NCBI GenBank assembly: GCA_021292105.1
Contig: CM037861.1
Span: 72,770,252 to 72,834,251, forward strand
Source: Anadara kagoshimensis
Taxonomy: Eukaryota; Mollusca; Bivalvia; Arcoida; Arcidae
Direction: 5' to 3'
Length of the DNA stretch: 64,000 nt
The notes beneath the pieces are model-generated. The model had not been told where the DNA came from, did not search any database, and saw only the letters and a list, made by a program, of their open reading frames with translations. The position numbers were made by a program, and so were the translations under genes. Positions 12,001-62,719 of this stretch are shown here, piece after piece (within the stretch, counting starts at the first letter, position 1; every line of letters begins with the position of its first letter).

Positions 12001-12156
12001 TCTCCAACAATACCAATGTCTGTCTGTACCATCTCCAATTACCAATGTCTGTCTGTACCATCTCCAACATTACCAATGTCTGTCTGTACCATCTCCAACA
12101 TTACCAATACCAATGTCTGTCTGTACCATCCCTAACATTACCAATGTTTGTCTGCA
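1..12156. repeat. Satellite array A, 31-bp/27-bp units, ~410 copies
   Basis: Near-continuous tandem array, cut by the left window edge. The long unit is CTGTCTGTACCATCTCCAAC followed by ATTACCAATGT (31 bp). A short form ends ATTACCT (27 bp) and a longer form carries an extra ACCAAT. Common variants are CTATCTC, CTATCTCG and ACAATACC. The unit has no stop codon in any + frame, and 31 is 1 modulo 3, so all three + frames stay open for many kilobases and read one 31-residue periodic peptide. This is a satellite, not a coding region. Single-base losses become more frequent after about 3.4 kb. Blocks carrying rare variants recur, for example ACCATCGCCAAC near 4090 and near 5928. Confidence 0.97.
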
Positions 12157-13502: not shown

Positions 13503-13699
13503 TTAAAATAAGTTAAAATGTTTTCTAAAACATAACTGAATTTATTATTTGTAAAACATGTTTCATCGTTGTGTACGGTTCTTCTTGTTACATATAAATG
13601 AATGTATATGTAACAAGAAGAATAGTACACAACGATGAAACATGTTTTACAAATAATAAATTCAGTTATGTTTTAGAAAACATTTTAATTTATTTTTAA
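13503..13699. mobile_element. Long near-perfect hairpin (MITE/fold-back-like)
   Basis: Arms of about 94 bp (13503-13596 and 13605-13699) are reverse complements with only about 3 differences, around an 8-base loop. One visible difference is GTACGGTTC in the left arm against GAATAGTAC in the right. The element is AT-rich, has no coding capacity and lies in TA-rich DNA. This fits a young non-autonomous fold-back or MITE-type element, but the family is not recognised. A recent inverted duplication is the alternative. Confidence 0.75.
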
Positions 13700-16034: not shown

Positions 16035-16181
16035 ATATAAATTTACATGAAGTTTACCCACAAAGACCTGCACAGTAGAAGCCCACAATGATTACTACAG
16101 CATTATTTACACCTAGCCACCACCAGCTGAGTACTGTTGTTCTATGTTTGTGTGTTTTAGTTGGATTTTACACACCTTTCG
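16035..16181 (+). CDS. Cadherin exon 1: 5' UTR, start codon and signal peptide (coding 16088-16181)
   Basis: The ATG at 16088 opens 31 codons plus one base, read as M-I-T-T-A-L-F-T-P-S-H-H-Q-L-S-T and then a hydrophobic core VVLCLCVLVGFY. This looks like a classical N-terminal signal peptide for a type I membrane protein. The donor is TTTCG|GTAAGTG at 16182. The split codon G|TC joins exon 2 to give ...TPFVFA|NNPPRL, where V-F-A is a plausible signal-peptidase site (-3 V, -1 A). The 5' edge is set by the acceptor-like TATTTTCAG ending at 16034, but transcription could instead begin nearby. The start was chosen because it is the ATG in frame with the downstream cadherin exons and it precedes the hydrophobic stretch. 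The next exon is 16.6 kb away. Confidence 0.72.
16047..16091 (+). other. Upstream ORF overlapping the cadherin start
   Basis: A 14-codon ORF (ATG at 16047, TGA at 16089-16091) lies in the candidate 5' UTR. It is out of frame with the cadherin, and its stop overlaps the cadherin start codon as ATGA. If the mRNA includes this segment, the uORF could reduce initiation at 16088 or feed it by reinitiation. No expression evidence. Confidence 0.35.
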
Positions 16182-16632
16182 GTAAGTGTTATATTACAAT
16201 ACATAAAGCATGTAGTAGGGTAAATCAAACACTTGGTATTTGTGCATGTTTGTAGTAACTACCATATATTGGGAATTTTTTCACATAGGCTTTTATTTTT
16301 GTGATTTCTAAGACAAAATAGCAGGTTAAAATTTCTTTGTGTTATATGAATCAATCAGCACAAAAATTGTCTTGAATTAACAAAACTGAGCTAATATCAG
16401 AAATAAATGAAGACTACAAGTTTTCAACTTTGATAACCTCAAGATATAAAAACTGATGAAAACTTCTTCACTGACAAAATTAAGTTCAAATTGACACAAT
16501 TACAATGAACAAGAGAAATACAGACTTTGGTGTCTGTTTCATTGCTGCATTATAAATTTATATTATCTGTTGTAGTTTGACAGCATTGGTCAAATAAAAT
16601 ATCAGAATTCTATAATTCTTAAATGGGTAAAT
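16182..16632. other. Start of intron 1, unique sequence
   Basis: AT-rich unique sequence following the GTAAGT donor. Nothing else recognised. Confidence 0.6.
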
Positions 16633-23321: not shown

Positions 23322-23798
23322 TTTTTGTTGTGATTTAATTTTTTATTTCCAGAATTGTAATGTACAATTTCATATTAGACATATCAACATGACATTCATT
23401 CTTCATTACATATTGAATCTAAATATTAAGTCTGGGTTTTTGTCTGGGACAAATACAAATTTTTGTGAAAATTCTCCAAAACACATAATGCTACAATCCT
23501 CATTTAAAATGTCTTTAATGAAAAATGTATTATTATCTGCCCAGGATTTATAATAAACCGGTTTGTTATTGATACATATTTCTTTATTATACCATAAATT
23601 TACGTCTTTTATTTCATTCATATTTTTTGGTATTTGTTTGGAACACAAGTTATTCCAAGATTCAAACACATCATTCCAAAAATTGTTACTATATTTTTTC
23701 TTTAGTTCAAGAGTATATAGGTTTCCATTATTAATGATCTTATCGAGTTTTGCATACACAATTTCGAATAGCCTTTTGTATTTTGATTGATTTCGAAC
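23322..23798 (-). mobile_element. 5'-truncated LINE insertion (L1/Tx1-like ORF2 C-terminus) with target-site duplication
   Basis: On the minus strand, an open frame runs from about 23798 to a stop at 23406. It encodes about 130 residues containing FWNDVFESWNNLC, LWYNKEI, NKPVYYKSW, FIKDILNED and FGEFSQKF. This resembles the region after the reverse transcriptase in L1/Tx1-type ORF2 proteins, where a W-Y-N..I, K..W, G/F-I.D-L.. pattern is common. About 80 non-coding bases follow and end in a short A-run on the minus strand (TTTTTT at 23321-23327). Both sides carry TGGTAACAATGATGAT (23306-23321 and 23799-23814), as expected for target-primed insertion into the GAT microsatellite. It is a dead-on-arrival fragment lacking the endonuclease and RT core. 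Family assignment is from memory of motifs only. Confidence 0.65.
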
Positions 23799-32827: not shown

Positions 32828-32905
32828 TCTTTGCAAATAATCCCCCACGTCTCCAGGATTTTGGTGCTTCTAGAGCGATAGTGAAATCAGAATCTACACC
32901 AGTCA
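32828..32905 (+). CDS. Cadherin exon 2: mature N-terminus and start of EC1
   Basis: The acceptor TATTTTTCAG ends at 32827 and the donor is GTCA|GTAAGTA at 32906. The exon is 78 bases and enters and leaves in phase 1. It reads V-F-A-NNPPRLQDFGASRAIVKS-E-STPV. The N-x-P-P-R/F start, followed by the SES strand carrying the conserved Ca2+-binding Glu (XEX motif) and TPV, is typical of the first EC repeat in CDHR1/Cad87A- and CDH23-like cadherins. The protein would act outside the cell as a Ca2+-dependent adhesion or tip-link-type molecule. The exon lies 157 bases after the end of the 31-bp splice-motif array. Confidence 0.82.
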
Positions 32906-33105
32906 GTAAGTATAAATTATTAACAATTGTTTGGTTTTATTGGAGCATAACATGTCAGATGATGGATCACAACTGGTATAAAACAGCATCATACTTAAAT
33001 ATCTAAAGATTTATTACAAACATCAAGTCTGTACTTGTTTAACTTATTTTCTCAGTAAATCTCTCTCTTTTGTTTATATAATTCCATCTCCCTTTTCCAT
33101 CATCT
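32906..33105. other. Start of intron 2, unique
   Basis: Unique AT-rich sequence after the exon 2 donor. Nothing recognised. Confidence 0.5.
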
Positions 33106-36176: not shown

Positions 36177-36310
36177 ATACAGTGATAGGGAGCTTAAAAG
36201 CCACAGATAGTGATGGTCCAATGCCCATTATATTCTCTATAACAGATCAGTCTACACAGGAGCTAGTAAGACTTAGTGCAGCCACTGGGATAGTGCTAAC
36301 AAAACACTAG
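36177..36310 (+). CDS. Cadherin exon 3: EC1 middle, frame-broken at its 3' end
   Basis: The acceptor is TTTTAATAG|AT. The split codon A|AT gives N. The frame reads TVIGSLKATDSDGPMP, then IIFSITDQSTQELVRLSAATGIVL and TKH, and stops at TAG 36308-36310. A-T-D-S-D (DXD Ca2+ motif) and T-G-I are textbook EC residues. The expected next element is LDRE. It is present as K-T-L-D-R-D-R, but one base out of frame. The array copies that follow read L-D-R-D-R and then a strong donor AGA|GTGAGT in phase 0, matching the phase 0 entry of exon 4. In this first copy the donor is missing: 18 G (36314-36331) replace about 65 bases of the unit. This may be an assembly or polishing error, an allele or real decay. 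A GTAAGA donor at 36266, also phase 0, would give a shortened EC1 lacking T-G-x and LDRE. Confidence 0.78.
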
Positions 36311-39050
36311 ACAGGGGGGGGGGGGGGGGGGACGTAGTGTTAATATAATACTTAACAAAACACTAGACAGAGATAGAGTGAGTATAACACTGGATAGGTC
36401 AGACTTGCAGACACTGGGGATAGGCCACAGGCGTAGTGTTAATATAATGCTTAACAAAACACTAGACAGAGATAGAGTGAGTATAACACTGGATAGGTCA
36501 GACTTGGTACAGACACTGGGGACAGTGCCACAGGACTTAGTGTTAATATAATACTTAACAAAACACTAGACAGAGATAGAGTGAGTATAACACTGGATAG
36601 GTCAGACTTGGTACAGACACTGGGGACAGTGCCACAGGACGTAGTGTTAATATATATTAACAAAACACTAGACAGAGATAGAGTGAGTATATAACACTGG
36701 ATAGGTCAGACTTGGTACAGACACTGGGACAGGCCACAGGACGTAGTGTTAATATAATACTTAACAAAACACTAGACAGAGATAGAGTCAGTATAACACT
36801 GGATAGGTCAGACTTGGTACAGACACTGGGGACAGTGCCACAGGACGTAGTGTTAATATAATACTTACAAAACACTAGACAGAGATAGAGTCAGTATAAC
36901 ACTGGATAGGTCAGACTTGGTACAGACACTGGGGACAGTGCCACAGGACGTAGTGTTAATATAATACTTAACAAAACACTAGACAGAGATAGAGTCAGTA
37001 TAACACTGGATAGGTCAGACTTAGTACAGACACTGGGGACAGTGCCACAGGGCGTAGTGTTAATATAATACTTAACAAAACACTAGACAGAGATAGAGTC
37101 AGAGTATAACACTGGATAGGTCAGACTTGGTACAGACACTGGGGACAGTGCCACAGGCTTAGTGAATATAATACTTAACAAAACACTAGACAGAGATAGA
37201 GTCAGTATAACACTGGATAGGTCAGACTTAGTACAGACACTGGGGACAGTGCACAGGCTTAGTGTTAATATAATACTTAACAAAACACTAGACAGAGATA
37301 GAGTGTATAACATGGATAGGTCAGACTTGTACAGACACTGGGGACAGTGCTACAGGACTTAGTGTTAATATAATACTTAACAAAACACTAGACAGAGATA
37401 GAGTGAGTATAACACTGGATAGGTCAGACTTGGTACAGACACTGGACAGTGTACAGGACTAGGTTAATAAATACTTAACAAAACACTAGACAGAGATAGA
37501 GAGTATAACACTGGATAGGTCAGACTTAGTACAGACACAGGACAGTGCCACAGGCATAGTGTTATATAATACTTAACAAAACACTAGACAGAGATAGAGT
37601 GAGTATAACACTGGATAGGTCAGACTTAGTACAGACACTGGGGACAGTGCCACAGGATAGTGTTAATATAATACTTAACAAAACACTAGACAGAGATAGA
37701 GTCAGTATAACACTGGATAGGTCAGACTTAGTACAGACACTGGGGACAGTGCCACAGGCTTAGTGTTATATAATACTTAACAAAACACTAGACAGAGATA
37801 GAGTGAGTATAACACTGGATAGGTCAGATAGTACAGACACTGGGGACAGTGCACAGGACTTAGTGTTAATATAATACTTACAAAACACTAGACAGAGATA
37901 GAGTGAGTATAACACTGGATAGGTCAGACTTGGTACAGACACTGGGGACAGTGCCACAGGACTTAGTGTTAATATAATATTAACAAAACACTAGACAGAG
38001 ATAGAGTGAGTATAACACTGGTAGGTCAGACTTGGTACAGACACTGGGACAGTGCCACAGGACGTAGTGTTAAATAATACTTAACAAAACACTAGACAGA
38101 GATAGAGTCAGTATAACACTGGATAGGTCAGACTTAGTACAGACACGGACAGTGCCACAGGACATAGTGTTATATAATACTTAACAAAACACTAGACAGA
38201 GATAGAGTCAGTATAACACTGGATAGGTCAGACTTAGTACAGACACTGGGGACAGTGCCACAGGGCATAGTGTTAATATAATACTTAACAAAACACTAGA
38301 CAGAGATAGAGTGAGTAAACACTGGATAGGTCAGACTTGGTACAGACACCTGGGGACAGTGCTACAGGACTTAGTGTTAATATAATACTTAACAAAACAC
38401 TAGACAGAGATAGAGTGAGTATAACACTGGATAGGTCAGACTTAGTATAGACACTGGGGACAGTGCCACAGGACGTAGTGTTAATATAATACTTAACAAA
38501 ACACTAGACAGAGATAGAGTGGTATAACACTGGATAGGTCACAGACTTGGTACAGACACTGGGGACAGTGCCACATGGCGTAGTGTTAATATAATACTTA
38601 ACAAAACACTAGACAGAGATAGAGTGAGTATAACACTGGATAGGTCAGACTTGGTACAGACACTGGGGACAGTGCCACAGGGCGTAGTGTTAATATAATA
38701 CTTAACAAAACACTAGACAGAGATAGAGTGAGTATAACACTGGATAGGTCAGACTTAGTACAGACACTGGGGACAGTGCCACAGGACGTAGTGTTACTAT
38801 AATACTTAACAAAACACTAGACAGAGAAAGAGTCAGTATAACACTGGATAGGTCAGACTTAGTATAGACACTGGGGACAGTGCCACAGGACGTAGTGTTA
38901 ATATAATACTTAACAAAACACTAGACAGAGATAGAGTGAGTATAACACTGGATAGGTCAGACTTAGTACAGACACTGGGGACAGTGCCACAGGGCGTAGT
39001 GTTAATATAATACTTAACAAAACTCTAGACAGTGATAGCATGAGTATAAT
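36299..39050. repeat. Tandem array N, ~104-bp unit, ~26 copies, derived from the exon 3/intron 3 junction
   Basis: The unit runs AACAAAACACTAGACAGAGA, TAGAGTGAGTATAACACTGG, ATAGGTCAGACTTGGTACAG, ACACTGGGGACAGTGCCACA, then GGACGTAGTGTTAATATAAT. The first part, AACAAAACACTAGACAG, is shared with the 3' end of exon 3 (36299-36315), so the array begins inside the exon. Many copies carry AGA|GTGAGT and others AGA|GTCAGT. ACACTGGGGACAGTG contains a short inverted pair (CACTG/CAGTG). Copies differ mostly by small deletions. The last, diverged copy ends at about 39050. Confidence 0.95.
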
Positions 39051-39216: not shown

Positions 39217-39282
39217 GAACCTTCAGAAAGAAAATTATACTTCAGTGTTGCTGATGGTGACAGTACAGTAGAACATAACACA
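39217..39282 (+). CDS. Cadherin exon 4: EC1 late strands
   Basis: The acceptor AACATTTCAG ends at 39216 and the donor is AACACA|GTAAGTACC at 39283. The exon is 66 bases, 22 codons, phase 0 to 0: EPSERKLYFSVADGDSTVEHNT. The pattern E..+.L.F.V.DG is the strand F region of an EC repeat, normally placed right after LDRE. Only phase 0 is free of stop codons. The last 8 exon bases (ATAACACA) and the donor are the first copy of the 28-bp array that fills intron 4. Confidence 0.85.
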
Positions 39283-42200
39283 GTAAGTACCATACTTACT
39301 TTATAACACAGTAAGTTCAATACTTACTTTATAACACAGTAAGTACCATACTTACTTTATAACACAGTAAGTACCATACTTACTTTATAACATAGTAACT
39401 ACCATACTTACTTTATAACACAGTAAGTTCCATACTTACTTTATAACACAGTAACTACCATACTTACTTTATAACACAGTAAGTACCATACTTTTATAAC
39501 ACAGTAAGTACCATACTTATTTTATAACACAGTAAGTACCATACTTTTATAACACAGTAACTACCATACTTACTTTATAACACAGTAACTACCATACTTA
39601 CTTTATAACACAGTAAGTACCATACTTACTTTATAACACAGTAAGTACCATACTTACTTTATAACATAGTAAGTACCATACTTACTTTATAACACAGTAA
39701 CTACCATACTTACTTTATAACACAGTAAGTACCATACTTACTTTATAACACAGTAAGTACCATACTTACTTTATAACATAGTAAGTACCATACTTACTTT
39801 ATAACACAGTAAGTACCATACTTACTTTATAACACAGTAAGTACCATACTTACTTTATAACACAGTAACTACCATACTTACTTTATAACACAGTAACTAC
39901 CATACTTACTTTATAACACAGTAAGTACCATACTTACTTTATAACATAGTAAGTTCCATACTTACTTTATAACACAGTAACTACCATACTTACTTTATAA
40001 CACAGTAAGTACCATACTTACTTATAACACAGTAAGTACCATACTTACTTTATAACACAGTAAGTACCATACTTACTTTATAACACAGTAAGTACCATAC
40101 TTACTTTATAACACAGTAAGTACCATACTTACTTTATAACACAGTAAGTACCATACTTACTTTATAACATAGTAACTACCATACTTACTTTATAACACAG
40201 TAAGTACCATACTTACTTTATAACATAGTAAGTACCATACTTACTTTATAACACAGTAAGTACCATACTTACTTTATAACATAGTAACTACCATACTTAC
40301 TTTATAACACAGTAAGTTTAATACTTACTTAATAACACAGTAAGTACCATACTTACTTTATAACACAGTAACTACCATACTTACTTTATAACACAGTAAC
40401 TACCATACTTACTTTATAACACAGTAAGTACCATACTTACTTTATAACATAGTAAGTACCATACTTACTTTATAACACAGTAAGTACCATACTTACTTTA
40501 TAACACAGTAACTACCATACTTACTTTATAACACAGTAAGTACCATACTTACTTTATAACACAGTAAGTACCATACTTACTTTATAACACAGTAAGTACC
40601 ATACTTACTTTATAACACAGTAAGTACCATATTACTTTATAACACAGTAACTACCATACTTACTTTATAACACAGTAAGTTAATACTTACTTTATAACAC
40701 AGTAAGTACCATACTTACTTTATAACACAGTAAGTTTAATACTTACTTTATAACACAGTAAGTTTAATACTTACTTTATAACACAGTAAGTTCCATACTT
40801 ACTTTATAACATAGTAACTACCATACTTACTTTATAACACAGTAAGTACCATATTTACTTTATAACACAGTAAGTACCATACTTACTTTATAACACAGTA
40901 AGTACCATACTTACTTTATAACACAGTAACTACCATACTTGCTTTATAACACAGTAAGTACCATACTTACTTTATAACACAGTAAGTACCATACTTACTT
41001 TATAACACAGTAAGTACCATACTTACTTTATAACATAGTAAGTACCATACTTACTTTATAACACAGTAAGTACCATATTTACTTTATAACACAGGAAGTA
41101 CCATACTTACTTTATAACACAGTAAGTACCATACTTACTTTATAACATAGTAACTACCATACTTACTTTATAACACAGTAAGTTTAATACTTACTTTATA
41201 ACACAGTAAGTACCATACTTACTTTATAACACAGTAAGTACCATACTTACTTTATAACACAGTAAGTACCATACTTACTTTATAACACAGTAAGTACCAT
41301 ACTTACTTTATAACACAGTAAGTACCATACTTACTTTATAACACAGTAAGTTCCATACTTACTTTATAACACAGTAAGTTCAATACTTACTTTATAACAC
41401 AGTAAGTACCATACTTACTTTATAACACAGTAAGTACCATACTTACTTTATAACACAGTAAGTATCATACTTTTATAACACAGTAAGTACCATACTTACT
41501 TTATAACACAGTAAGTACCATACTTACTTTATAACATAGTAACTACCATACTTACTTTATAACATAGTAAGTACCATACTTTATAACATAGTAAGTACCA
41601 TACTTACTTTATAACACAGTAAGTACCATACTTACTTTATAACAGTAAGTACTACATACTTACTTTATAACACAGTAAGTACCATACTTACTTTATAACA
41701 TAGTAACTACCATACTTACTTTATAACACAGTAAGTTTAATACTTACTTAATAACACAGTAAGTACCATACTTACTTTATAACACAGTAACTACCATACT
41801 TACTTTATAACACAGTAACTACCATACTTACTTTATAACACAGTAAGTACCATACTTACTTATAACAGTAAGTACCATACTTACTTTATAACACAGTAAG
41901 TACCATACTTACTTTATAACACAGTAACTACCATACTTACTTTATAACACAGTAAGTACCATACTTACTTTATAACACAGTAAGTACCATACTTACTTTA
42001 TAACACAGTAAGTACCATACTTACTTTATAACACAGTAAGTACCATATTACTTTATAACACAGTAACTACCATACTTACTTTATAACACAGTAAGTTTAA
42101 TACTTACTTTATAACACAGTAAGTACCATACTTACTTTATAACACAGTAAGTTTAATACTTACTTTATAACACAGTAAGTTTAATACTTACTTTATAACA

Positions 42201-45200
42201 CAGTAAGTTCCATACTTACTTTATAACATAGTAACTACCATACTTACTTTATAACACAGTAAGTACCATACTTACTTTATAACACAGTAACTACCATATT
42301 TACTTTATAACACAGTAAGTACCATACTTACTTTATAACACAGTAAGTACCATACTTACTTTATAACACAGTAACTACCATACTTGCTTTATAACACAGT
42401 AAGTACCATACTTACTTTATAACACAGTAAGTACCATACTTACTTTATAACACAGTAAGTACCATACTTACTTTATAACATAGTAAGTACCATACTTACT
42501 TTATAACACAGTAAGTACCATATTACTTTATAACACAGGAAGTACCATACTTACTTTATAACACAGTAAGTACCATACTTACTTTATAACATAGTAACTA
42601 CCATACTTACTTTATAACACAGTAAGTTTAATACTTACTTTATAACACAGTAAGTACCATACTTACTTTATAACACAGTAAGTACCATACTTACTTTATA
42701 ACACAGTAAGTACCATACTTACTTTATAACACAGTAAGTACCATACTTACTTTATAACACAGTAAGTACCATACTTACTTTATAACACAGTAAGTTCCAT
42801 ACTTACTTTATAACACAGTAAGTTCAATACTTACTTTATAACACAGTAAGTACCATACTTACTTTATAACACAGTAAGTACCATACTTACTTTATAACAC
42901 AGTAAGTACCATACTTTTATAACACAGTAAGTACCATACTTACTTTATAACACAGTAAGTACCATACTTACTTTATAACATAGTAACTACCATACTTACT
43001 TTATAACATAGTAAGTACCATACTTTATAACATAGTAAGTACCATACTTACTTTATAACACAGTAAGTACCATACTTACTTTATAACATAGTAACTACCA
43101 TACTTACTTTATAACACAGTAAGTACCATACTTACTTTACATAGTAAGTACCATACTTACTTTATAACACAGTAACTACCATACTTACTTTATAACACAG
43201 TAAGTACCATACTTACTTTATAACACAGTAAGTACCATACTTACTTTATAACACAGTAAGTACCATACTTACTTTATAACACAGTAAGTACCATACTTAC
43301 TTTATAACACAGTAAGTACCATACTTACTTTATAACATAGTAAGTACCATACTTACTTTATAACACAGTAAGTACCATACTTACTTTATAACATAGTAAC
43401 TACCATACTTACTTTATAACACAGTAAGTTTAATACTTACTTAATAACACAGTAAGTACCATACTTACTTTATAACACAGTAAGTTTAATACTTACTTTA
43501 TAACACAGTAACTACCATACTTACTTTATAACACAGTAAGTACCATACTTACTTTATAACACAGTAAGTACCATACTTACTTTATAACATAGTAACTACC
43601 ATACTTACTTTATAACACAGTAAGTTTAATACTTACTTTATAACACAGTAAGTACCATACTTACTTTATAACACAGTAAGTACCATACTTACTTTATAAC
43701 ACAGTAACTACCATACTTACTTTATAACACAGTAAGTACCATACTTACTTTATAACACAGTAAGTTTAATACTTACTTAATAACACAGTAAGTACCATAC
43801 TTACTTTATAACACAGTAAGTTTAATACTTACTTAATAACACAGTAAGTACCATACTTACTTTATAACACAGTAAGTAATACTTACTTTATAACACAGTA
43901 AGTACCATACTTACTTTATAACACAGTAAGTACCATACTTACTTTATAACACAGTAACTACCATACTTACTTTATAACACAGTAAGTACCATACTTACTT
44001 TATAACACAGTAAGTACCATATTTACTTTATAACACAGTAAGGACCATACTTACTTTATAACACAGTAAGTACCATACTTTTATAACACAGTAACTACCA
44101 TACTTACTTTATAACACTGTAACTACCATACTTACTTTATAACACAGTAACTACCATACTTACTTTATAACACAGTAACTACCATACTTACTTTATAACA
44201 CAGTAAGTTCAATACTTACTTTATAACACAGTAACTACCATACTTACTTTATAACACAGTAAGTACCATACTTACTTTATAACACAGTAAGTACCATACT
44301 TACTTTATAACACAGTAAGTACCATACTTACTTTATAACATAGTAAGTACCATACTTACTTTATAACACAGTAAGTACCATACTTACTTTATAACATAGT
44401 AACTACCATACTTACTTTATAACACAGTAAGTTTAATACTTACTTAATAACACAGTAAGTACCATACTTACTTTATAACACAGTAAGTTTAATACTTACT
44501 TTATAACACAGTAACTACCATACTTACTTTATAACACAGTAAGTACCATACTTACTTTATAACACAGTAAGTACCATACTTACTTTATAACATAGTAACT
44601 ACCATACTTACTTTATAACACAGTAAGTTTAATACTTACTTTATAACACAGTAAGTACCATACTTACTTTATAACACAGTAAGTACCATACTTACTTTAT
44701 AACACAGTAACTACCATACTTACTTTATAACACAGTAAGTACCATACTTACTTTATAACACAGTAAGTTTAATACTTACTTAATAACACAGTAAGTACCA
44801 TACTTACTTTATAACACAGTAAGTTTAATACTTACTTAATAACACAGTAAGTACCATACTTACTTTATAACACAGTAAGTTTAATACTTACTTTATAACA
44901 CAGTAAGTACCATACTTACTTTATAACACAGTAAGTACCATACTTACTTTATAACACAGTAACTACCATACTTACTTTATAACACAGTAAGTACCATACT
45001 TACTTTATAACACAGTAAGTACCATATTTACTTTATAACACAGTAAGGACCATACTTACTTTATAACACAGTAAGTACCATACTTTTATAACACAGTAAC
45101 TACCATACTTACTTTATAACACTGTAACTACCATACTTACTTTATAACACAGTAACTACCATACTTACTTTATAACACAGTAACTACCATACTTACTTTA

Positions 45201-48200
45201 TAACACAGTAAGTTCAATACTTACTTTATAACACAGTAACTACCATACTTACTTTATAACACAGTAAGTACCATACTTACTTTATAACACAGTAAGTACC
45301 ATATTTACTTTATAACACAGTAAGTACCATACTTTTATAACACAGTAAGTACCATACTTACTTTATAACACAGTAAGTACCATACTTACTTTATAACACA
45401 GTAAGTACCATACTTACTTTTAATAACACAGTAAGTACCATATTTACTTTTATAACACAGTAAGTACCATACTTACTTTATAACACAGTAAGTACCATAC
45501 TTACTTTATAACACCAGTAAGTACCATATTACTTTATAACACAGTAAGTACCATACTTACTTTATAACACAGTAAGTACCATACTTTTATAACACAGTAA
45601 GTACCATACTTACTTTATAACACAGTAAGTACCATACTTACTTTATAACACAGTAAGTACCATACTTACTTTATAACACAGTAAGTACCATACTTACTTT
45701 ATAACACAGTAAGTACCATACTTACTTTATAACACAGTAACTACCATACTTACTTTATAACATAGTAAGTACCATACTTACTTTATAACACAGTAAGTAC
45801 CATACTTACTTTATAACACAGTAAGTTTAATACTTACTTTATAACATAGTAAGTACCATACTTACTTTATAACACAGTACCATACTTACTTTATAACACA
45901 GTAAGTACCATATTTACTTTATAACACAGTAAGTACCATACTTACTTTATAACACAGTAAGTACCATACTTACTTTATAACACAGTAACTACCATACTTA
46001 CTTTATAACACAGTAACTACCATACTTACTTATAACACAGTAAGTACCATACTTACTTTATAACACAGTAAGTACCATACTTACTTTATAACACAGTAAG
46101 TACCATACTTACTTATAACACAGTAACTACCATACTTACTTTATAACACAGTAACTACCATACTTACTTTATAACACAGTAAGTACCATACTTACTTTAT
46201 AACACAGTAAGTACCATATTTACTTATAACACAGTAAGTACCATACTTACTTTATAACACAGTAAGTTTAATACTTACTTTATAACACAGTAAGTTTAAT
46301 ACTTACTTTATAACACAGTAAGTTCCATACTTACTTTATAACACAGTAAGTTTAATACTTACTTTATAACACAGTAAGTTCCATACTTACTTTATAACAT
46401 AGTAACTACCATACTTACTTTATAACACAGTAAGTACCATACTTACTTTATAACACAGTAACTACCATATTTACTTGATAACACAGTAAGTACCATATTT
46501 ACTTTATACACAGGAAGTACCATACTTACTTTATAACACAGTAAGTACCATACTTACTTTATAACATAGTAACTACCATACTTACTTTATAACACAGTAA
46601 GTTTAATACTTACTTTATAACACAGTAAGTACCATACTTACTTTATAACACAGTAAGTACCATACTTACTTTATAACACAGTAAGTACCATACTTACTTT
46701 ATAACACAGTAAGTACCATACTTACTTTATAACACAGTAAGTACCATACTTACTTTATAACACAGTAAGTACCATACTTACTTTAACACAGTAAGTACCA
46801 TACTTACTTTATAACACAGTAAGTACCATACTTACTTTATAACATAGTAAGTACCATACTTACTTTATAACACAGTAAGTACCATATTTACTTTATAACA
46901 CAGGAAGTACCATACTTACTTTATAACACAGTAAGTACCATACTTCTTTATAACATAGTAACTACCATACTTACTTTATAACACAGTAAGTTTAATACTT
47001 ACTTTATAACACAGTAAGTACCATACTTACTTTATAACACAGTAAGTACCATACTTACTTTATAACACAGTAAGTACCATACTTACTTTATAACACAGTA
47101 AGTACCATACTTACTTTATAACACAGTAAGTACCATACTTACTTTATAACACAGTAAGTTCCATACTTACTTTATAACACAGTAAGTTCAATACTTACTT
47201 ATAACACAGTAAGTACCATACTTACTTTATAACACAGTAAGTACCATACTTACTTTATAACACAGTAAGTACCATACTTTTATAACACAGTAAGTACCAT
47301 ACTTACTTTATAACACAGTAAGTACCATACTTTATAACACAGTAAGTACCATACTTACTTTATAACACAGTAAGTACCATACTTACTTTATAACATAGTA
47401 ACTACCATACTTACTTTATCACAGTAAGTACCATACTTACTTTATAACACAGTAACTACCATACTTACTTTATAACATAGTAAGTACCATACTTACTTTA
47501 TAACATAGTAAGTACCATACTTACTTTATAACACAGTAAGTACCATACTTACTTTATAACATAGTAACTACCATACTTACTTTATAACACAGTAAGTACC
47601 ATACTTACTTTATAACATAGTAAGTACCATACTTACTTTATAACACAGTAACTACCATACTTACTTTATAACACAGTAAGTACCATACTTACTTTATAAC
47701 ATAGTAACTACCATACTTACTTTATAACACAGTAAGTACCATACTTACTTTATAACACAGTAAGTACCATACTTACTTTATAACACAGTAAGTACCATAC
47801 TTACTTTATAACACAGTAAGTACCATACTTACTTTATAACACAGTAAGTACCATACTTACTTTATAACATAGTAAGTACCATACTTACTTTATAACACAG
47901 TAAGTACCATACTTACTTTATAACATAGTAACTACCATACTTACTTTATAACACAGTAAGTTTAATACTTACTTAATAACACAGTAAGTACCATACTTAC
48001 TTTATAACACAGTAACTACTATACTTACTTTATAACACAGTAACTACCATACTTACTTTATAACACAGTAAGTACCATACTTACTTTATAACACAGTAAG
48101 TTCCATACTTACTTTATAACACAGTAAGTTCAATACTTACTTTATAACACAGTAAGTACCATACTTACTTTATAACACAGTAAGTACATACTTACTTATA

Positions 48201-51200
48201 ACACAGTAAGTACCATACTTTTATAACACAGTAAGTACCATACTTACTTTATAACACAGTAAGTACCATACTTACTTTATAACATAGTAACTACCATACT
48301 TACTTTATAACATAGTAAGTACCATACTTTATAACATAGTAAGTACCATACTTACTTTATAACACAGTAAGTACCATACTTACTTTATAACATAGTAACT
48401 ACCATACTTACTTTATAACACAGTAAGTTTAATACTTACTTAATAACACAGTAAGTACCATACTTTACTTTATAACACAGTAAGTTTAATACTTACTTTA
48501 TAACACAGTAACTACCATACTTACTTTATAACACAGTAAGTACCATACTACTTTATAACACAGTAAGTACCATACTTACTTTATACATAGTAACTACCAT
48601 ACTTACTTTATAACACAGTAAGTTTAATACTTACTTTATAACACAGTAAGTACATACTTACTTTATAACACAGTAAGTACCATACTTACTTTATAACACA
48701 GTAACTACCATACTTACTTTATAACACAGTAAGTACCATACTTACTTTATAACACAGTAAGTTAATACTTACTTATAACACAGTAAGTACCATACTTACT
48801 TTATAACACAGTAAGTTTAATACTTACTTAATAACACAGTAAGTACCATACTTACTTTATAAACACAGTAAGTTTAATACTTACTTTATAACACAGTAAG
48901 TACCATACTTACTTTATAACACGTAAGTACCATACTTACTTTATAACACAGTAACTACCATACTTACTTTATAACACGTAAGTACCATACTTACTTTATA
49001 ACACAGTAAGTACCATATTTACTTTATAACACAGTAAGGCCATACTTACTTTATAACACAGTAAGTACCATACTTTTATAACACAGTAACTACCATACTT
49101 ACTTTATAACACTTAACTACCATACTTACTTTATAACACAGTAACTACCATACTTACTTTATAACACAGTAACTACATACTTACTTTATAACACAGTAAG
49201 TTCAATACTTACTTTATAACACAGTAACTACCATACTTACTTTATAACACAGTAAGTACCATACTTACTTTATAACACAGTAAGTACCATACTTACTTTA
49301 TAACACAGTAAGTACCATACTTACTTTATAACATAGTAAGTACCATACTTACTTTATAACACAGTAGTACCATTCTTACTTTATAACATAGTAACTACCA
49401 TACTTACTTTATAACACAGTAAGTTTAATACTTACTTAATAAACACAGTAAGTACCATACTTACTTTATAACACAGTAAGTTATACTTACTTTATAACAC
49501 AGTAACTACCATACTTACTTTATAACACAGTAAGTACATACTTACTTTATAACAAGTAAGTACCATACTTACTTTATAACATAAGTAACTACCATACTTA
49601 CTTTATAACACAGTAAGTTTAATACTTACTTTATAACACAGTAAGTACCATACTTACTTTATAACACAGTAAGTACCCATACTTACTTTATAACACAGTA
49701 ACTACCATACTTACTTTATACACAGTAAGTACCATACTTACTTTATAACACAGTAAGTTTAATACTTACTTAATAACACAGTAAGTACCATACTTACTTT
49801 ATACACAGTAAGTTTAATACTTACTTAATAACACAGTAAGTACCATACTTACTTTAAACAGTAAGTACCATACTTACTTTATAACACAGTAAGTACCATA
49901 TTTACTTTATAAACACAGGAAGTACCATACTTACTTTATAACACAGTAAGTAACCATACTTACTTTATAACATAGTAACTACCATACTTACTTTATAACA
50001 CAGTAAGTTTAATACTTACTTTATAACACAGTAAGTACCATACTTACTTTATAACACAGTAAGTACCATACTTACTTTATAACACAGTAATACCATACTT
50101 ACTTTATAACACAGTAATACCATACTTACTTTATAACACAGTAAGTACCATACTTACTTTAACACAGTAAGTTCCATACTTACTTTATAACACAGTAAGT
50201 TCATACTTACTTTATAACACAGTAAGTACCATACTTACTTTATAACACAGTAAGTACCATACTTACTTTATAACACAGTAAGTACCATACTTTTATAACA
50301 CAGTAAGTACCATACTTACTTATAACACAGTAAGTACCATACTTTTATAACACAGTAAGTACCATACTTACTTTATAACACAGTAAGTACCATACTTACT
50401 TTATAACATAGTAACTACCATACTTACTTTATAACACAGTAAGTACCATACTTACTTTATAACACAGTAACTACCATACTTACTTTATAACATAGTAAGT
50501 ACCATACTTACTTTATAACATAGTAAGTACCATACTTACTTTATCACAGTAATACCATACTTACTTTATAACATAGTAACTACCATACTTACTTATAACA
50601 CAGTAAGTACCATACTTACTTTATAAATAGTAAGTACCATACTTACTTTATAACACAGTAACTACCATACTTACTTTATAACACAGTAAGTACCATACTT
50701 ACTTTATAACATAGTAACTACCATACTTACTTTATAACACAGTAAGTACCATACTTACTTTATAACACAGTAAGTACCATACTTACTTTATAACATAGTA
50801 AGTACCATACTTACTTTATAACACAGTAACTACCATACTTACTTTATAACACAGTAAGTACCATACTTACTTTATAACATAGTAACTACCATACTTACTT
50901 TATAACACAGTAAGTACCATACTTACTTTATAACACAGTAAGTACCATACTTACTTTATAACACAGTAAGTACCATACTTACTTTAAACACAAGTAGTAC
51001 CATACTTACTTTTATAACACAGTAGTCCATACTTACTTTATAACATAGTAAGTACCATACTTACTTTATAACACAGTAAGTACCATACTTACTTATAACA
51101 TAGTAAACTACCATACTTACTTATAACACAGTAAGTTTAATACTTACTTAATAACACAGTAAGTACCATACTTACTTATAACCAGTAACTACTATACTTA

Positions 51201-54200
51201 CTTTATAACACAGTAACTACCATACTTACTTTATAACACAGTAAGTACCATACTTACTTTATACACAGTAAGTTCCATACTTACTTTATAACACCGTAAG
51301 TTCAATACTTACTTTATAACACAGTAAGTACCATACTTACTTTATAACACAGTAAGTACCATACTTACTTTATAACACAGTAAGTACCATACTTTTATAA
51401 CACAGTAAGTACCATACTTACTTTATAACACAGTAATACCATACTTACTTTATAACATAGTAATACCATACTTACTTTATAACAGTAAGTACCATACTTA
51501 TAACATAGTAAGTACCATACTTACTTTATAACACAGTAAGTACCATACTTACTTTATACATAGTAACTACCATACTTACTTTATAACACAGTAAGTTTAA
51601 TACTTACTTAATAACACAGTAATACCATACTTACTTTATAACACAGTAAGTTTAATACTACTTTATAACACAGTAACTACCATACTTACTTTATAACACA
51701 GTAAGTACCATACTTACTTTATAACACAGTAAGTACCATACTTACTTTATAACATAGTAACACCATACTTACTTTATAACACAGTAAGTTTAATACTTAC
51801 TTTATAACCAGTAAGTACCATACTTACTTTTAACACAGTAAGTACCATACTTACTTTATAACACAGTAACTACCATACTTACTTTATAACACAGTAAGTA
51901 CCATACTTACTTTATAACACAGTAAGTTTAATACTTACTTAATAACACAGTAAGTACCATACTTACTTTATAACACAGTAAGTTTATACTTACTTAATAA
52001 CACAGTAAGTACCATACTTACTTTAAAACACAGTAAGTTTAATACTTACTTTATAACACAGTAAGTACCATACTTACTTTATAACACAGTAAGTACCATA
52101 CTTACTTTATAACACAGTAACTACCATACTTACTTTATAACACAGTAATACCATACTTACTTTATAACACAGTAAGTACCATATTTACTTTATAACACAG
52201 TAAGGACCATACTTACTTTATAACACAGTAAGTACCATCTTTTATAACACAGTAACTACCATACTTACTTTATAACACTGTAACTACCATACTTACTTTA
52301 TAACACAGTAACTACCATACTTACTTTAACACAGTAACTACCATACTTACTTTATAACACAGTAAGTTCAATACTTACTTTTTATAACACAGTAACTACC
52401 ATACTTACTTTATAACACAGTAAGTACCATACTTACTTTATAACACAGTAAGTACCATACTTACTTTATAACACAGTAAGTACCATACTTACTTTATAAC
52501 ATAGTAAGTACCATACTTACTTTATAACACAGTAAGTACCATACTTACTTTATAACATAGTAACTACCATACTTACTTTATAACACAGTAAGTTTAATAT
52601 TACTTAATAACACAGTAATACCCATACTTACTTTATAACACAGTAAGTTTAATACTTACTTTATAACACAGTACTACCATACTTACTTTATAACACAGTA
52701 AGTACCATACTTACTTTTAACACAGTAAGTACCATACTTACTTTATAACATAGTAACTACCATACTTACTTTATAACACAGTAAGTTTAATACTTACTTT
52801 ATAACACAGTAAGTACCATACTTACTTTATAACACAGTAAGTACCATACTTACTTTATAACACAGTAACTACCATACTTACTTTATAACACAGTAAGTAC
52901 CATACTTACTTTATAACACAGTAAGTTTAATACTTACTTAATAACACAGTAAGTACCATACTTACTTTATAACACAGTAAGTTTTACTTACTTAATAACA
53001 CAGTAAGTACCATACTTACTTTTTATAATAGTAAGTACCATACTTACTTTATACACAGTAAGTACCATATTTTACTTTATAACACAGGAAGTACCATACT
53101 TACTTTATAACACAGTAAGTACCATACTACTTATAACATAGTAACTACCATACTTACTTATAACACAGTAAGTTTAATACTTACTTTATAACACAGTAAC
53201 TACATACTTACTTTATAACACAGTAAGTACCATACTTACTTTATAACATAGTAAGTACCATACTTACTTTATAACACAGTAAGTACCATACTTACTTTAT
53301 AACATAGTAACTACCATACTTACTTTATAACACAGTAAGTACCATACTTACTTATACATAGTAGTACATACTTACTTTATAACACAGTAAACTACCATAC
53401 TTACTTTATAACACAGTAAGTACCATACTTACTTTATAACATAGTAACTACCATACTTACTTTATAACACAGTAAGTACCATACTTACTTTATACACAGT
53501 AAGTACCATACTTACTTTATAACACAGTAAGTACCATACTTACTTATAACACAGTAAGTACCATACTTACTTTATAACACAGTAAGTACCATACTTACTT
53601 TATAACATAGTAAGTACCATACTTACTTTATAACAACAGTAAGTACCATACTTACTTTCATAACATAGTAACTACCATACTTACTTTATAACACAGTAAG
53701 TTTAATACTTACTTAATAACACAGTAAGTACCATACTTACTTTATACACAGTAACTACTATACTTACTTTATAACACAGTAACTACCATACTTACTTTAT
53801 AAACAGTAAGTACCATACTTACTTATAACACAGTAAGTTTCCATACTTACTTTATAACACGTAAGTTCAATACTTACTTTATAACACAGTAAGTACATAC
53901 TTACTTTATAACACAGTAAGTACCATACTTACTTTATAACACAGTAAGTACCATACTTTTATAACACAGTAAGTACCATACTTACTTTATAACACAGTAA
54001 GTACCATACTTACTTTATAACATAGTAAACTACATACTTACTTTATAACATAGTAAGTACCATACTTTATAACATAGTAGTACCATACTTACTTTAACAC
54101 AGTAAGTACCATACTTACTTTATAACATAGTAACTACCATACTTACTTTATAACACAGTAAGTTTAATACTTACTTAATAACACAGTAAGTACCATACTT

Positions 54201-57200
54201 ACTTTATAACACAGTAATTTAATACTTACTTTATAACACAGTAACTACATACTTACTTTTATAACACAGTAAGGACCATACTTACTTATAACAGTAAGTA
54301 CCATACTTACTTTATAACATAGTAACTACCATACTTACTTTATAACACAGTAAGTTTAATACTTACTTTATAACACAGTAAGTACCATACTTACTTTATA
54401 ACACAGTAAGTACCATACTACTTTATAACAGTAACTACCATACTTACTTTATAACACAGTAAGTACCATACTTACTTTATAACACAGTAAGTTAATACTT
54501 ACTTAATAACACAGTAAGTACCATACTTACTTTATAACACAGTAAGTTTAATACTACTTAATAAACAGTAAGTACCATACTTACTTTATAACACAGTAAG
54601 TTTAATACTTACTTTATAACCCAGTAAGTACCATACTTACTTTATAACACAGTAGTACCATACTTACTTTATAACACAGTACTACCATACTTACTTTATA
54701 ACACAGTAAGTACCACTTACTTTATAACACAGTAAGTACCATAATTTACTTTATAACACAGTAAGGACCATACGTACTTTATAACACAGTAAGTACCATA
54801 CTTTTATAACACAGTAACTACCATACTTACTTTATAACACTGTAACTACCATACTTACTTATAACACAGTAACTACCATACTTACTTTATAACACAGTAA
54901 CTACCATACTTACTTTATAACACAGTAAGTTCAATACTACTTTATAACACAGTAACTACCATACTTACTTATAACACAGTAAGTACCATACTTACTTTAT
55001 AACACAGTAAGTACCATCTTTACTTATAACACAGTAAGTACCATACTTACTTTATAAACATAGTAAGTACCATACTTACTTTATAACACAGTAAGTACGC
55101 ATACTTACTTTATAACACAGTAACTACCATACTTACTTTATAACATAGTAAGTACCATACTTACTTTATAACATAGTAAGTACCATACTTACTTTATAAC
55201 ACAGTAAGTACCATACTTACTTATAACATAGTAACTACCATACTTACTTTATAACACAGTAAGTACCGAACTACTTTTATAACATAGTAAGTACCATACT
55301 TACTTTATACACACAGTAACTACCATACTTACTTATAACACAGTAAGTACCATACTTACTTTTAACATATAACTACCATACTTACTTTATAACACAGTAA
55401 GTACCATACTTACTTTATAACACAGTAAGTACCATACTTACTTTATAACACAGTAAGTACCATACTTACTTTATAACACAGTAAGTACATACTTACTTTA
55501 TAACACAGTAAGTTACCAACTTACTTTATAACATAGTAATACCATACTTACTTTATAACACAGTAAGTACCATACTTACTTTATAACATAGTAACTACCA
55601 TACTTACTTTTATAACACAGTAAGTTTATACTTACTTAATAACACAGTAAGTACCATACTTACTTTATAACACAGTAACTACTATACTTACTTTATAACA
55701 CAGTAATACCATACTACTTATAACACAGTAAGTACCATACTTACTTTATAACACAGTAAGTACCCATACTTACTTTATAACATAGTAACTACCATACTTA
55801 CTTTATAACACAGTAAGTACATACTTACTTTATAACACAGTAGTACCATACTTACTTTATAACACAGTAACTAACTACCTACTTTTTATAACACAGTAAG
55901 TACCATACTTACTTTATACACACCGTAGTTTAATACTTACTAATAACACAGTAAGTACCATACTTACTTTATAACACAGTAAGTTTAATACTTACTTAAT
56001 AACACAGTAAGTACCATACTTACTTTATAACACAGTAACTACCATACTTACTTATACACAGTAACTACCATACTTACTTTATAACACAGTAAGTACCATA
56101 CTTACTTTATAACACAGTAAGTACCATACTTACTTTATAACATAGTAACACTACCATACTTACTTTATAACACAGTAAGTTTAAATACTTACTTTATAAC
56201 ACAGTAAGTACCATACTTACTTTATAACACAGTAAGTACCATACTTACTTTATAACACAGTAACTACTACCATACTTACTTTATAACACAGTAAGTACCA
56301 TACTTACTTTATAACACAGTAAGTACATATTTACTTTATAACACAGTAAGTACCATACTTACTTATAACACAGTAAGTACCATACTTTATAACACAGTAA
56401 CTACCATACTTACTTTAAACACAGTAACTACCATACTTACTTTATAACACAGTAACTACCATACTTACTTTATAACACAGTAACTACCATACTTACTTTA
56501 TAACACAGTAAGTTCAATACTTACTTTATAACACAGTAACTACCATACTTACTTTATAACACAGTAAGTACCATACTTACTTTATAACACAGTAAGTACA
56601 TACTTACTTTATAACATAGTAAGTACCATACTTACTTTATAACACAGTAAGTACCATACTTACTTTATAACATAGTAACTACCATACTTACTTTATAACA
56701 CAGTAAGTTTAATACTTACTTAATAACACAGTAAGTACCATACTTACTTTATAACACAGTAACTACTATACTACTTTATAACACAGTAAAACTACCATAC
56801 TTACTTTATAACACAGTAAGTACCATACTTACTTTATAACACAGTAAGTACCATACTTACTTTATAACATAGTAACTACCATACTTACTTTATACACACA
56901 GTAAGTACCATACTTACTTTATAACACAGTAAGTACATACTTACTTTATAACACAGAACTACCATACTTACTTTATAACACAGTAAGTACCATATTACTT
57001 TATAACACAGTAAGTTTAATACTTACTTAATAACACAGTAAGTACCATACTTACTTTATAACACAGTAAGTTTAATACTTACTTAATAACACAGTAAGTA
57101 CCATACTTACTTTATAACACAGTAACTACCATACTTACTTTATAACACAGTAACTACCATACTTACTTTATAAACACAGTAAGTACCATACTTACTTTAT

Positions 57201-57500
57201 AACACAGTAAGTACCATACTTACTTTATAACATAGTAACTACCATACTTACTTTATAACACAGTAAGTTTAATACTACTTTATAACACGTAAGTACCATA
57301 CTTACTTTATAACACAGTAAGTACCATACTTACTTATAACACAGTAACTACCATACTACTTTATAACACAGTAAGTACCATACTTACTTTATAACACAGT
57401 AAGTACCATACTTACTTTATAACATAGTAAGTACCATACTTACTTTATAACACAGTAAGTTACTTACTTTATAACACGGTAAGTTCAATACTTACTTCAA
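39275..57500. repeat. Tandem array O, 28-bp unit, ~650 copies, built on the exon 4 donor (intron 4)
   Basis: The unit is ATAACACAGTAAGTACCATA followed by CTTACTTT. It begins in exon 4 and fills 95% of intron 4. Frequent variants are GTAACTACC, GTAAGTTTAAT, GTAAGTTCAAT, CATAGTAAG and TACTTTTATAAC (a 24-bp unit lacking ACTT). Within a unit, GTAAGTA and TACTTAC are perfect reverse complements around CCA, so RNA from either strand can form a 7-bp hairpin. Blocks of rare variants recur. CAGTAAGGACC occurs near 44036 and 45041, about 1.0 kb apart, and again near 52200 and 54762, with a related CAGTAAGGCC near 49033. Single-base losses are markedly denser after about 48.1 kb. Confidence 0.98.
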
Positions 57501-57814
57501 AGAATTTTAATTTAGTTGATTGCTAACAAGTTTCTAATTTATATTGTAATTTTATATATTATTATACCAACTTTGAACAAAGTTCAACATTAGTAATCTG
57601 TTTTTACAACAACCATACCATAGATAGGCCTTAGATGTAATATCTGTAGGACTAAGATAGAAGTGTAGAACAAAATCTTAAAATTTATAAGAATGAGACC
57701 TTTGATATGTGTTGTATAGTATTCAATTTGCTTATTCTTGGTTGATAATTCTAAAAAAAAAAGAAAACTTAAGAAGAGCCCTTTAATTTATGAAAATATA
57801 GTTCTATTTTGTTG
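57501..57814. other. Intron 4 spacer with diverged dispersed repeat
   Basis: About 57630-57800 resembles 13985-14275: AGATGTAATATCTGTAGGAC, TTCTTGGTTGATAATTCT and AGCCCTTTAATTTATGAAAA align with diverged counterparts there. It is a non-coding dispersed element of unknown family. Confidence 0.45.
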
Positions 57815-58457
57815 CTGTCAGATGTTATATAACATATGTTATAATATGGTTACTGTCAGATGTTATATATGACATATGTTATAATATTGTAACTGTCAAA
57901 TGTTATATATAACATATGTTATAATATTGTTGCTGTCAGATGTTATATATAACATATGTTATAATATGGTTACTGTCAGATGTTATATATGACATATGTT
58001 ATAATATTGTAACTGTCAGATGTTATATATAACATATGTTATAATATGGTTACTGTCAGATGTTATATATAACATGATATAATATTGTAACTGTCAGATG
58101 TTATATATAGCATATGTTGTAATATGGTTACTGTCAGATGTTACATATAACATATGTTATAATATGGTTACTGTCAGATGTTACATATAACATATGTTAT
58201 AATATGGTTACTGTCAGATGTTACATATAACATATGTTATAATATGGTTACTGTCAGATGTTATATATAACATATGTTATAATATTGTTACTGTCAAATG
58301 TTATATATAACATATGTTATAATATTGTGACTGCCAGATGTTATATATAACATATGTTATAATATTGTAACTGCCAGATGTTATATATAACATATGTTAT
58401 AATAATTTTACTGTCTGATGTTATATATAACATATGTTATAATATTGTTACTTTCAG
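57815..58457. repeat. Tandem array P, 40-bp unit, ~16 copies, ending in the exon 5 acceptor
   Basis: The unit is TGTTATATATAACATATGTT followed by ATAATATTGTTACTGTCAGA. It contains two overlapping palindromes, GTTATATATAAC and ATAACATATGTTAT. The final, diverged unit is AATATTGTTACTTTCAG|ATATC, the acceptor of exon 5. The first exon bases (TTATATATAACAGATGTT) also align with the unit (TTATATATAACATATGTT). Acceptor-like TTACTGTCAG therefore recurs in most copies. Confidence 0.93.
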
Positions 58458-58547
58458 ATATCATTTGTTGTTATATTATATATAACAGATGTTAATGATG
58501 AAAGACCAGAGTTTACATTTTATCAGTATATGGAATCAGTATATGAG
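58458..58547 (+). CDS. Cadherin exon 5: end of EC1, EC1-EC2 linker, start of EC2
   Basis: The acceptor GTTACTTTCAG ends at 58457 and the donor is TATGAG|GTATCT at 58548. The exon is 90 bases, phase 0 to 0. It reads ISFVVILYITDVNDERPEF and then TFYQYMESVYE. D-V-N-D-E-x-P-x-F is the DXNDN Ca2+-linker motif that closes an EC repeat, and Y-x-x-S-V-x-E opens EC2 with its XEX glutamate. A second AG at 58487, just before ATGTTAATG, would put the motif out of frame, so the upstream acceptor is preferred. It is the one that matches the phase 0 exit of exon 4. Confidence 0.82.
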
Positions 58548-62632: not shown

Positions 62633-62719
62633 AATGCAACAATAGGAACAACAGTAACCACGGTTACAGCTGAAGATCCTGATAATGGACTAGGTGGCTC
62701 AGTTACCTACTCTATGGAG
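62633..62719 (+). CDS. Cadherin exon 6: EC2 first half
   Basis: The acceptor AAAATTATTTCAG ends at 62632 and the donor is ATGGAG|GTGAGT at 62720. The exon is 87 bases, 29 codons, phase 0 to 0: NATIGTTVTTVTAEDPDNGL followed by GGSVTYSME. Joined to exon 5 it gives S-V-Y-E-N-A-x-x-G-T-x-V, then A-E-D-P-D (DXD) and G-x-x-G-S-V-x-Y-S, a standard EC2 pattern. The protein must continue beyond the window with the rest of EC2, further repeats, a transmembrane segment and a tail. Confidence 0.9.

Follow-up and report, generated by a model that had tools for sequence, protein, structure and literature searches.

A splice-donor-bearing minisatellite, probably founded on an exon/intron junction, fills most of an intron of a cadherin gene in Anadara kagoshimensis

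The DNA considered here is a stretch of 64,000 nucleotides from the bivalve Anadara kagoshimensis (GenBank assembly GCA_021292105.1, contig CM037861.1, positions 72,770,252 to 72,834,251 of the forward strand; hereafter the window, numbered from its first letter). It holds the 5' part of a plus-strand gene whose exons encode a signal-like peptide followed by cadherin repeats (Table 1), and the fourth intron of this gene, 19,175 bp long, is occupied for the most part by a 28-bp tandem repeat whose unit carries a splice donor. Exons 4, 5 and 6 join in frame when the donor in the first copy of this repeat is paired with the acceptor at 58458. The joined exons match 137 distinct cadherin sequences in PDB at E up to 0.001; among the best 60 of these 137, which are the matches listed, the first is CELSR1 (8vy2_A, E 5.2e-41 summed over many repeats). 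The match to cadherin-23 (5w4t_C, E 1.9e-21) spans query positions 2-143, so that extracellular cadherin repeats 1 and 2 (EC1-EC2) are covered by cadherin matches, and with EC1 alone as query 5w4t_C ranks first in PDB (E 1.4e-14; best single stretch 9.5e-10). Pfam is weak here, with the exon 4-6 piece scoring 26.2, under the cut-off of 28.8, and the exon 1-3 piece giving no match, and the cadherin naming therefore rests on the PDB sequence matches. Cadherin-23 appears to be among the nearest solved relatives, and any closer naming is tentative given that CELSR1 is the best single match. A cadherin search of viral contigs gave no match.

Tandem Repeats Finder (TRF) reports the repeat as a single array (period 28, 658.0 copies, 91% matches), and our own wrap-around alignment resolves 658 units, 236 of which are the perfect consensus without insertion. 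A preliminary description of this DNA had estimated some 650 tandem 28-bp copies starting at 39275, which both counts bear out, with the end at 57497. Being made of head-to-tail copies of one unit within the range of about 10-100 bp, the array is a minisatellite. That description had also treated the intron as being the array, and this needs trimming: the array is most of intron 4, but no TRF array covers 57498-57808, and a second array, with a 40-bp unit, occupies 57809-58459. There are 112 distinct aligned unit types, in mixed order, and an exact internal repeat of 645 bp recurs at a distance of 1003 bp (~36 units), with a peak of unit identity at lag 36. When up to 5 substitutions and no indels are allowed, the unit matches at 579 places on the plus strand, every one inside the array, with none on the minus strand and none elsewhere in the window; no exact copies of the unit were found in viral and prokaryote contigs, and Rfam at gathering scores returned 0 matches. 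TRF arrays account for 79.7% of the window as a whole and for 80.8% of its gene part, and in a setting so rich in minisatellites the birth of an array would be a common event.

Table 1. Features of the cadherin gene and its tandem arrays (positions in the window).
Feature	Positions	Strand	Description
Exon 1, coding part	16088..16181	+	Start codon and hydrophobic signal-like peptide; donor GTAAGT at 16182; from sequence and translation
Exon 2 (EC1 start)	32828..32905	+	Donor GTAAGT at 32906; from sequence, translation and PDB match to cadherin-23
Exon 3, visible part	36177..36316	+	Ends in a G run; from sequence and translation
104-bp array, 26.6 copies	36330..39049	+	TRF; exon 3-like coding end and candidate donor GATAGA/GTGAGT
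Exon 4 (EPSERKLYFSVADGDSTVEHNT)	39217..39282	+	Phase 0 at end; spanned by the cadherin-23 alignment
28-bp array, unit ATAACACAGTAAGTACCATACTTACTTT	39275..57497	+	TRF and own alignment, 658 units
Copy 1 of the 28-bp array	39275..39302	+	Last 8 coding bases of exon 4 and predicted authentic donor
In-frame TAA	39304..39306	+	Reached by any transcript using a donor beyond copy 1
Indel-rich 3' part of the 28-bp array	48443..57497	+	Six-fold more units with a single-base indel
40-bp array, 16.4 copies	57809..58459	+	TRF; contains the predicted exon 5 acceptor
Exon 5 (ISFVVILYITDVNDERPEFTFYQYMESVYE)	58458..58547	+	Predicted acceptor at 58458
Exon 6 (EC2 start)	62633..62719	+	From sequence, translation and PDB match

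The number of copies has to be read with some caution. From unit 330 (48443) onward, the share of units carrying a single-base indel goes up from 5.2% to 33.5%, a step with a log-likelihood gain of 46.6 against at most 7.5 in 300 permutations. Substitutions change little between the two halves, at about 28 per kb in the first and about 35 in the second. Seven other arrays were compared, among them the 31-bp array, in which indels rise along the array, the 104-bp array, in which they are high over much of the length, and the 44-bp array, which has none. The step at 48443 looks like a regional drop of consensus quality in a long-read assembly; with a poorer consensus in the 3' half, 658 copies is therefore an assembly estimate, and the total is not secure. 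One might go further and suppose a genuine but short array that the assembler inflated, as the sharpness of the indel step, the exact 645-bp internal repeat and the poly-G run with its frame break at exon 3 would allow. But the 112 unit types in mixed order, the few indels in the first 9 kb, the many other arrays in the window and the clean junction at copy 1 argue against inflation, and we regard it as unlikely. The first 9 kb of the array is enough for the finding described here.

Copy 1 ties the array to the gene. It had been proposed that the exon 4 donor is copy 1 of the array, including the last 8 coding bases, and the comparison agrees: copy 1 is identical to the consensus at 28 of 28 bases, its first 8 bases, ATAACACA, are the final 8 bases of exon 4 (the codons CAT AAC ACA without the first C), and the donor GTAAGTACC comes next, with GTAAGT at 39283, so that the exon 4/intron 4 junction reads ATAACACA on the exon side and GTAAGTACCATACTTAC on the intron side. 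Given the base composition, 8 chance matches of copy 1 to the coding end would have p of about 4e-5. Upstream of 39275 exon 4 no longer resembles the unit, and we rejected homology of the unit to the rest of the exon, as those 8 bases are all that is shared. A unit that holds a donor, with a first copy that overlaps the end of an exon (an end placed here by sequence and reading frame), is the arrangement of human IFI6, to which we return below. Because copy 1 overlaps the exon and the unit is absent elsewhere in the window, we take the founder of the array to be the junction itself. Alternatively, a pre-existing or mobile repeat could have inserted at the exon edge and taken over the donor, by chance or by selection, and minisatellites do fill most introns of this gene; but such a repeat would not be expected to carry 8 coding bases in copy 1 while having no match to its unit anywhere else in the window, and we consider this origin highly unlikely.

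The choice of donor matters for the protein in a uniform way. Any donor after copy 1 would add VSTILTL and then run into the stop TAA at 39304. The AG sites of the unit, if used as acceptors, would fare no better: 529 of the 543 occurrences of ACAG in the array stand as ACAG/TAA and would join ACA to TAA, an immediate stop, and the 14 AG sites that precede 58458 in the 40-bp array, when joined to copy 1, lead to a stop in 14 of 14 cases. Out of several hundred donors and the 15 AG sites that were examined within the 40-bp array, the reading frame predicts a single productive pair. The earlier suggestion of many equivalent donors with the protein outcome at stake is thus half right, in that there are hundreds of sense donors and their use would alter the product, but the later donors are all dead ends at 39304. 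It is conceivable that cells put this to use, with splicing at later copies serving as a regulated cut in cadherin output by way of premature stops; the single stop shared by all later donors and the 14 upstream AG sites that meet a stop would suit such a switch, and IFI6 repeat units are reported as alternative donors in the relevant part of PMC4526556. On the other side, the array donors bear no sign of selection, and with 28 nt of exon added per copy the exon would soon become unusually long, which leaves a regulated switch improbable.

Most copies do retain a GTAAGT-type donor in the sense of transcription, as had been remarked: GTAAGT is intact in 474 of the 658 units, and in 254 of the 330 that make up the first 9 kb, whereas dinucleotide-shuffled versions of the array contain about 22 (mean over 20 shuffles). 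Its commonest loss is to GTAACT, in 146 units. The authentic donor 9-mer ACAGTAAGT occurs 423 times and the 17-mer ATAACACAGTAAGTACC 299 times. Such a density could mean that the array is kept as a platform for loading the U1 small nuclear ribonucleoprotein (U1), for telescripting of an AT-rich intron or as a hold on chromatin. In favour of a platform are the 474 sense donors in 18.2 kb where 20 kb of introns 1-2 have 8, and the spacing of array donors, which never lie more than 137 bp apart. If U1 binding maintained the array, however, the sense donor should outlast its antisense counterpart; the reverse is seen, and the donor is therefore not favoured. Antisense GTAAGT is the commoner of the two (590 string matches, with ACTTAC intact in 591 of 658 units) because the unit is palindromic, GTAAGTA being followed after the three bases CCA by its exact reverse complement TACTTAC, and this useless hexamer is better kept than the donor. 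The G at donor position +5 is retained in 75.2% of units, the lowest value among the 28 positions. Set against the 22 remaining hexamers of the unit, GTAAGT is kept less well than 17, equally with 1 and better than 4, these 4 overlapping the variable positions A15-C17. Nor are donor-free runs shorter than chance, the longest being 4 units against a shuffled mean of 4.7. Retention of this kind shows tolerance and is not a count of mutations, and we read it as a sign against selection, not as proof. We also rejected recursive splice sites: AGGT is absent from the array in the sense direction, and in ACAGTAAGT a single G serves both AG and GT.

Polyadenylation signals, for which AATAAA and ATTAAA only were counted, do not call for a platform either. 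In intron 4 there are 2 in the sense direction (49438 and 54560), each within the indel-rich stretch of the array. Introns 1-2, over 20 kb, contain 60 of these signals and just 8 GTAAGT. U1 would therefore have few such signals to suppress within intron 4, though from the array it could still protect sequence further downstream. The proposal that the array suppresses premature polyadenylation, and that of a U1 sink, both fall short on the same grounds, namely the scarcity of poly(A) hexamers, a donor retained less well than its antisense mirror, and the predicted burial of the donors in folded RNA. U1 binding in cells is compatible with these results, which take away the sign that such binding keeps the array; that idea lacks support, and a U1 platform is in our view very unlikely.

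We think it quite probable that the array is a neutral minisatellite founded on the exon 4/intron 4 junction, with copy 1 as the only productive donor. A stretch of 28 bp, made of 8 coding bases, GTAAGT and 14 more intronic bases, would have been duplicated in tandem, and slippage and segmental duplication would then have brought the array to about 650 copies, a process to which the units, copy 1 and the long internal repeats point. Growth would have been confined to the intron, as further copies in the exon would disrupt the protein. Copy 1 would have remained the working donor, since it alone keeps the frame and the later donors share one stop. The other donors would be passengers, retained as the array is young and homogenised and not for the binding of U1. 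With each donor followed 3 bases on by its own reverse complement, the array donors would be largely buried in RNA hairpins and might compete less with copy 1 in the cell, and leaky use of later copies would yield transcripts with premature stops.

Folding calculations give good evidence that the RNA of the array would be strongly self-paired. A single unit is predicted to fold at -6.3 kcal/mol with its donor in an 8-bp stem, which 0 of 200 shuffles matched, while the GTAACT variant folds at -0.4 kcal/mol. In direct folds of 160 nt, the donor hexamer is open with a median probability of 7e-7 across the 474 array donors and with a probability of 1.5e-5 in copy 1. Five further donors of the gene, including the exon 3 candidate described below, range from 3e-4 to 5e-2, and 300 hexamers sampled from unique sequence have a median of 0.014; 2 of 300 permuted units were as buried as the real one. 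This clear contrast belongs to the direct fold only, the sliding-window result varying with window size, and proteins on nascent RNA would change all of these figures. Among the 15 array units tested for self-complementarity (triplet arrays and a few short TRF rows were left out), the 28-bp unit (z -3.1; 2 of 200 shuffles) and the 40-bp unit (z -2.0; 9 of 200) stand out. The other 13 are unremarkable (z -1.4 to +1.4), and self-complementarity as a general rule of local arrays was rejected.

Several points weigh against the neutral minisatellite with copy 1 as its one productive donor, and some of them bear directly on masking. Copy 1 is predicted to be more buried than the other donors of the gene, and in the direct fold 57 of the 474 array donors have a higher chance of being open than it has, so that masking by itself does not set copy 1 apart. 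Sliding-window folds give larger open values; depending on which of five settings is used, copy 1 is less open than 2 to 123 of the 474 donors, and by this measure a perfect tandem array is not unlike arrays of permuted units (53 of 100 as low). Because the rank of copy 1 shifts with the fold window, we rejected masking at the array edge as a clear cause of its choice, and the evidence that pairing picks copy 1 is weak. Units with both hairpin arms intact number 417 of 658, where about 426 are expected from the separate frequencies; selection on the hairpin was rejected for want of any excess. Variants spread by duplication, so that unit counts are not independent events, the founder state is read from copy 1, and the use of copy 1 is itself deduced from the sequence.

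Arrays lie at both ends of intron 4, one carrying its donor and the other its predicted acceptor, and a candidate donor of exon 3 sits in a third array. At the acceptor end, the 40-bp unit contains an acceptor-like CAG/ATGTTA, present 13 times, and the array runs into the predicted acceptor of exon 5. The unit agrees with exon 5 at 20 of 22 bases, a fit equalled by 0 of 200 and, in a second round, by 4 of 500 shuffles. As one of 66 unit-exon pairs tried, this match is no more than suggestive; an unrelated pair, the 51-bp unit of intron 5 and exon 4, also passed the loose screen (4 of 200 shuffles). The 40-bp array has a palindromic core, TGTTATATATAACA. At exon 3, the 104-bp unit gives a local match to the exon with a score of 40, against at most 28 in 500 shuffles (0 of 500 as good), and GTGAGT occurs 14 times in its array, first at 36378. 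There LDRDR/GTGAGT would join exon 4 in frame, but the frame of exon 3 breaks before it, and the donor at 36378 is therefore a candidate only. With such a donor-like site in its unit, this array may be where a second intron of the gene starts. As assembled (36295-36331), exon 3 has an in-frame TAG (TKH*TG) directly before the long G run, although a different frame of the array that follows reads through the cadherin motif LDRDR. The TAG may be a consensus error, a real frame break or a sign of an earlier donor.

With the exon 3 candidate counted, 3 of 10 junctions lie inside arrays. When arrays were placed at random in introns 1-5, a mean of 0.05 junctions fell inside and 3 of 10 was reached in 0 of 20,000 runs; with a 10-bp margin P was 0.009. 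This test was devised after seeing the data and concerns one gene only. The clustering, one of the three being a candidate, suggests that junctions can seed minisatellites, and such seeding could be checked across repeat-rich genomes. A bolder version would be that the splice junctions of this gene give birth to minisatellites and that the donor array is a self-masking decoy field, in which the edge copy is the best available and array length tunes splicing and cadherin output; taken as a whole we find this unlikely.

By analogy, the closest precedent would be IFI6, also known as G1P3, where units of 12 bp, a multiple of 3, are repeated about 26 times along an exon edge. In 1995 Turri, Cuin and Porter reportedly described a minisatellite in the human IFI6 gene as a source of multiple splice donors. 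In both cases a minisatellite unit carries a splice donor, but here the period is not a multiple of 3, the reading frame meets a stop, there are 658 copies over 18 kb, the unit is palindromic and a second array sits on the acceptor; the gene here is a cadherin, and the likeness is in kind only. A title on a minisatellite with splice donors in IFI6 (G1P3, 6-16) is cited in PMC2572611 and PMC4526556, and the latter, in the passage concerned, has two downstream repeat units acting as donors. Gigantic introns with transcribed tandem repeats are described for the Drosophila Y genes kl-3 and kl-5 in passages of PMC6508621. As in intron 4, introns of coding genes are filled there with tandem repeats, but those are simple satellites totalling megabases, and these passages do not mention splice-site content. 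Intron gain by tandem duplication of a segment containing AGGT is treated in parts of PMC4974935 (which cites Rogers 1989 and Hellsten 2011, as well as fission-yeast cases with 24-bp copies). There too tandem duplication at an exon copies splice signals, whereas the present array has AGGT 0 times and would have lengthened an existing intron with copies of its own donor, making no new one. In earthworm metallothionein genes the first intron has a repetitive region of 10-19 kb classed as minisatellite (PMC12783039, in part), which is likewise a minisatellite in an intron of an invertebrate gene, but the passages concerned describe no splice site in the repeat. Our searches of open-licence papers turned up no described case like this array. 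It offers a natural experiment, with one productive donor and several hundred near-identical ones among which the wrong choice always leads to the same stop, and it would let exon definition, position and RNA folding be compared where sequence cannot pick the donor.

Three further observations concern other parts of the window. Upstream of exon 1, an array with a 31-bp unit extends over 12 kb (1-12154) and is open at the window edge. At 13520-13680 visual inspection showed an inverted repeat, ATAACTGAATTTATTATTTGTAAAACATGTTTCATCGTTGTGTAC with its near complement, which lies beside AT-rich simple repeats and is possibly a small inverted-repeat transposon. Finally, a minus-strand open frame at 23406-23790 presumably resembles part of the reverse-transcriptase protein of a long interspersed nuclear element (LINE).

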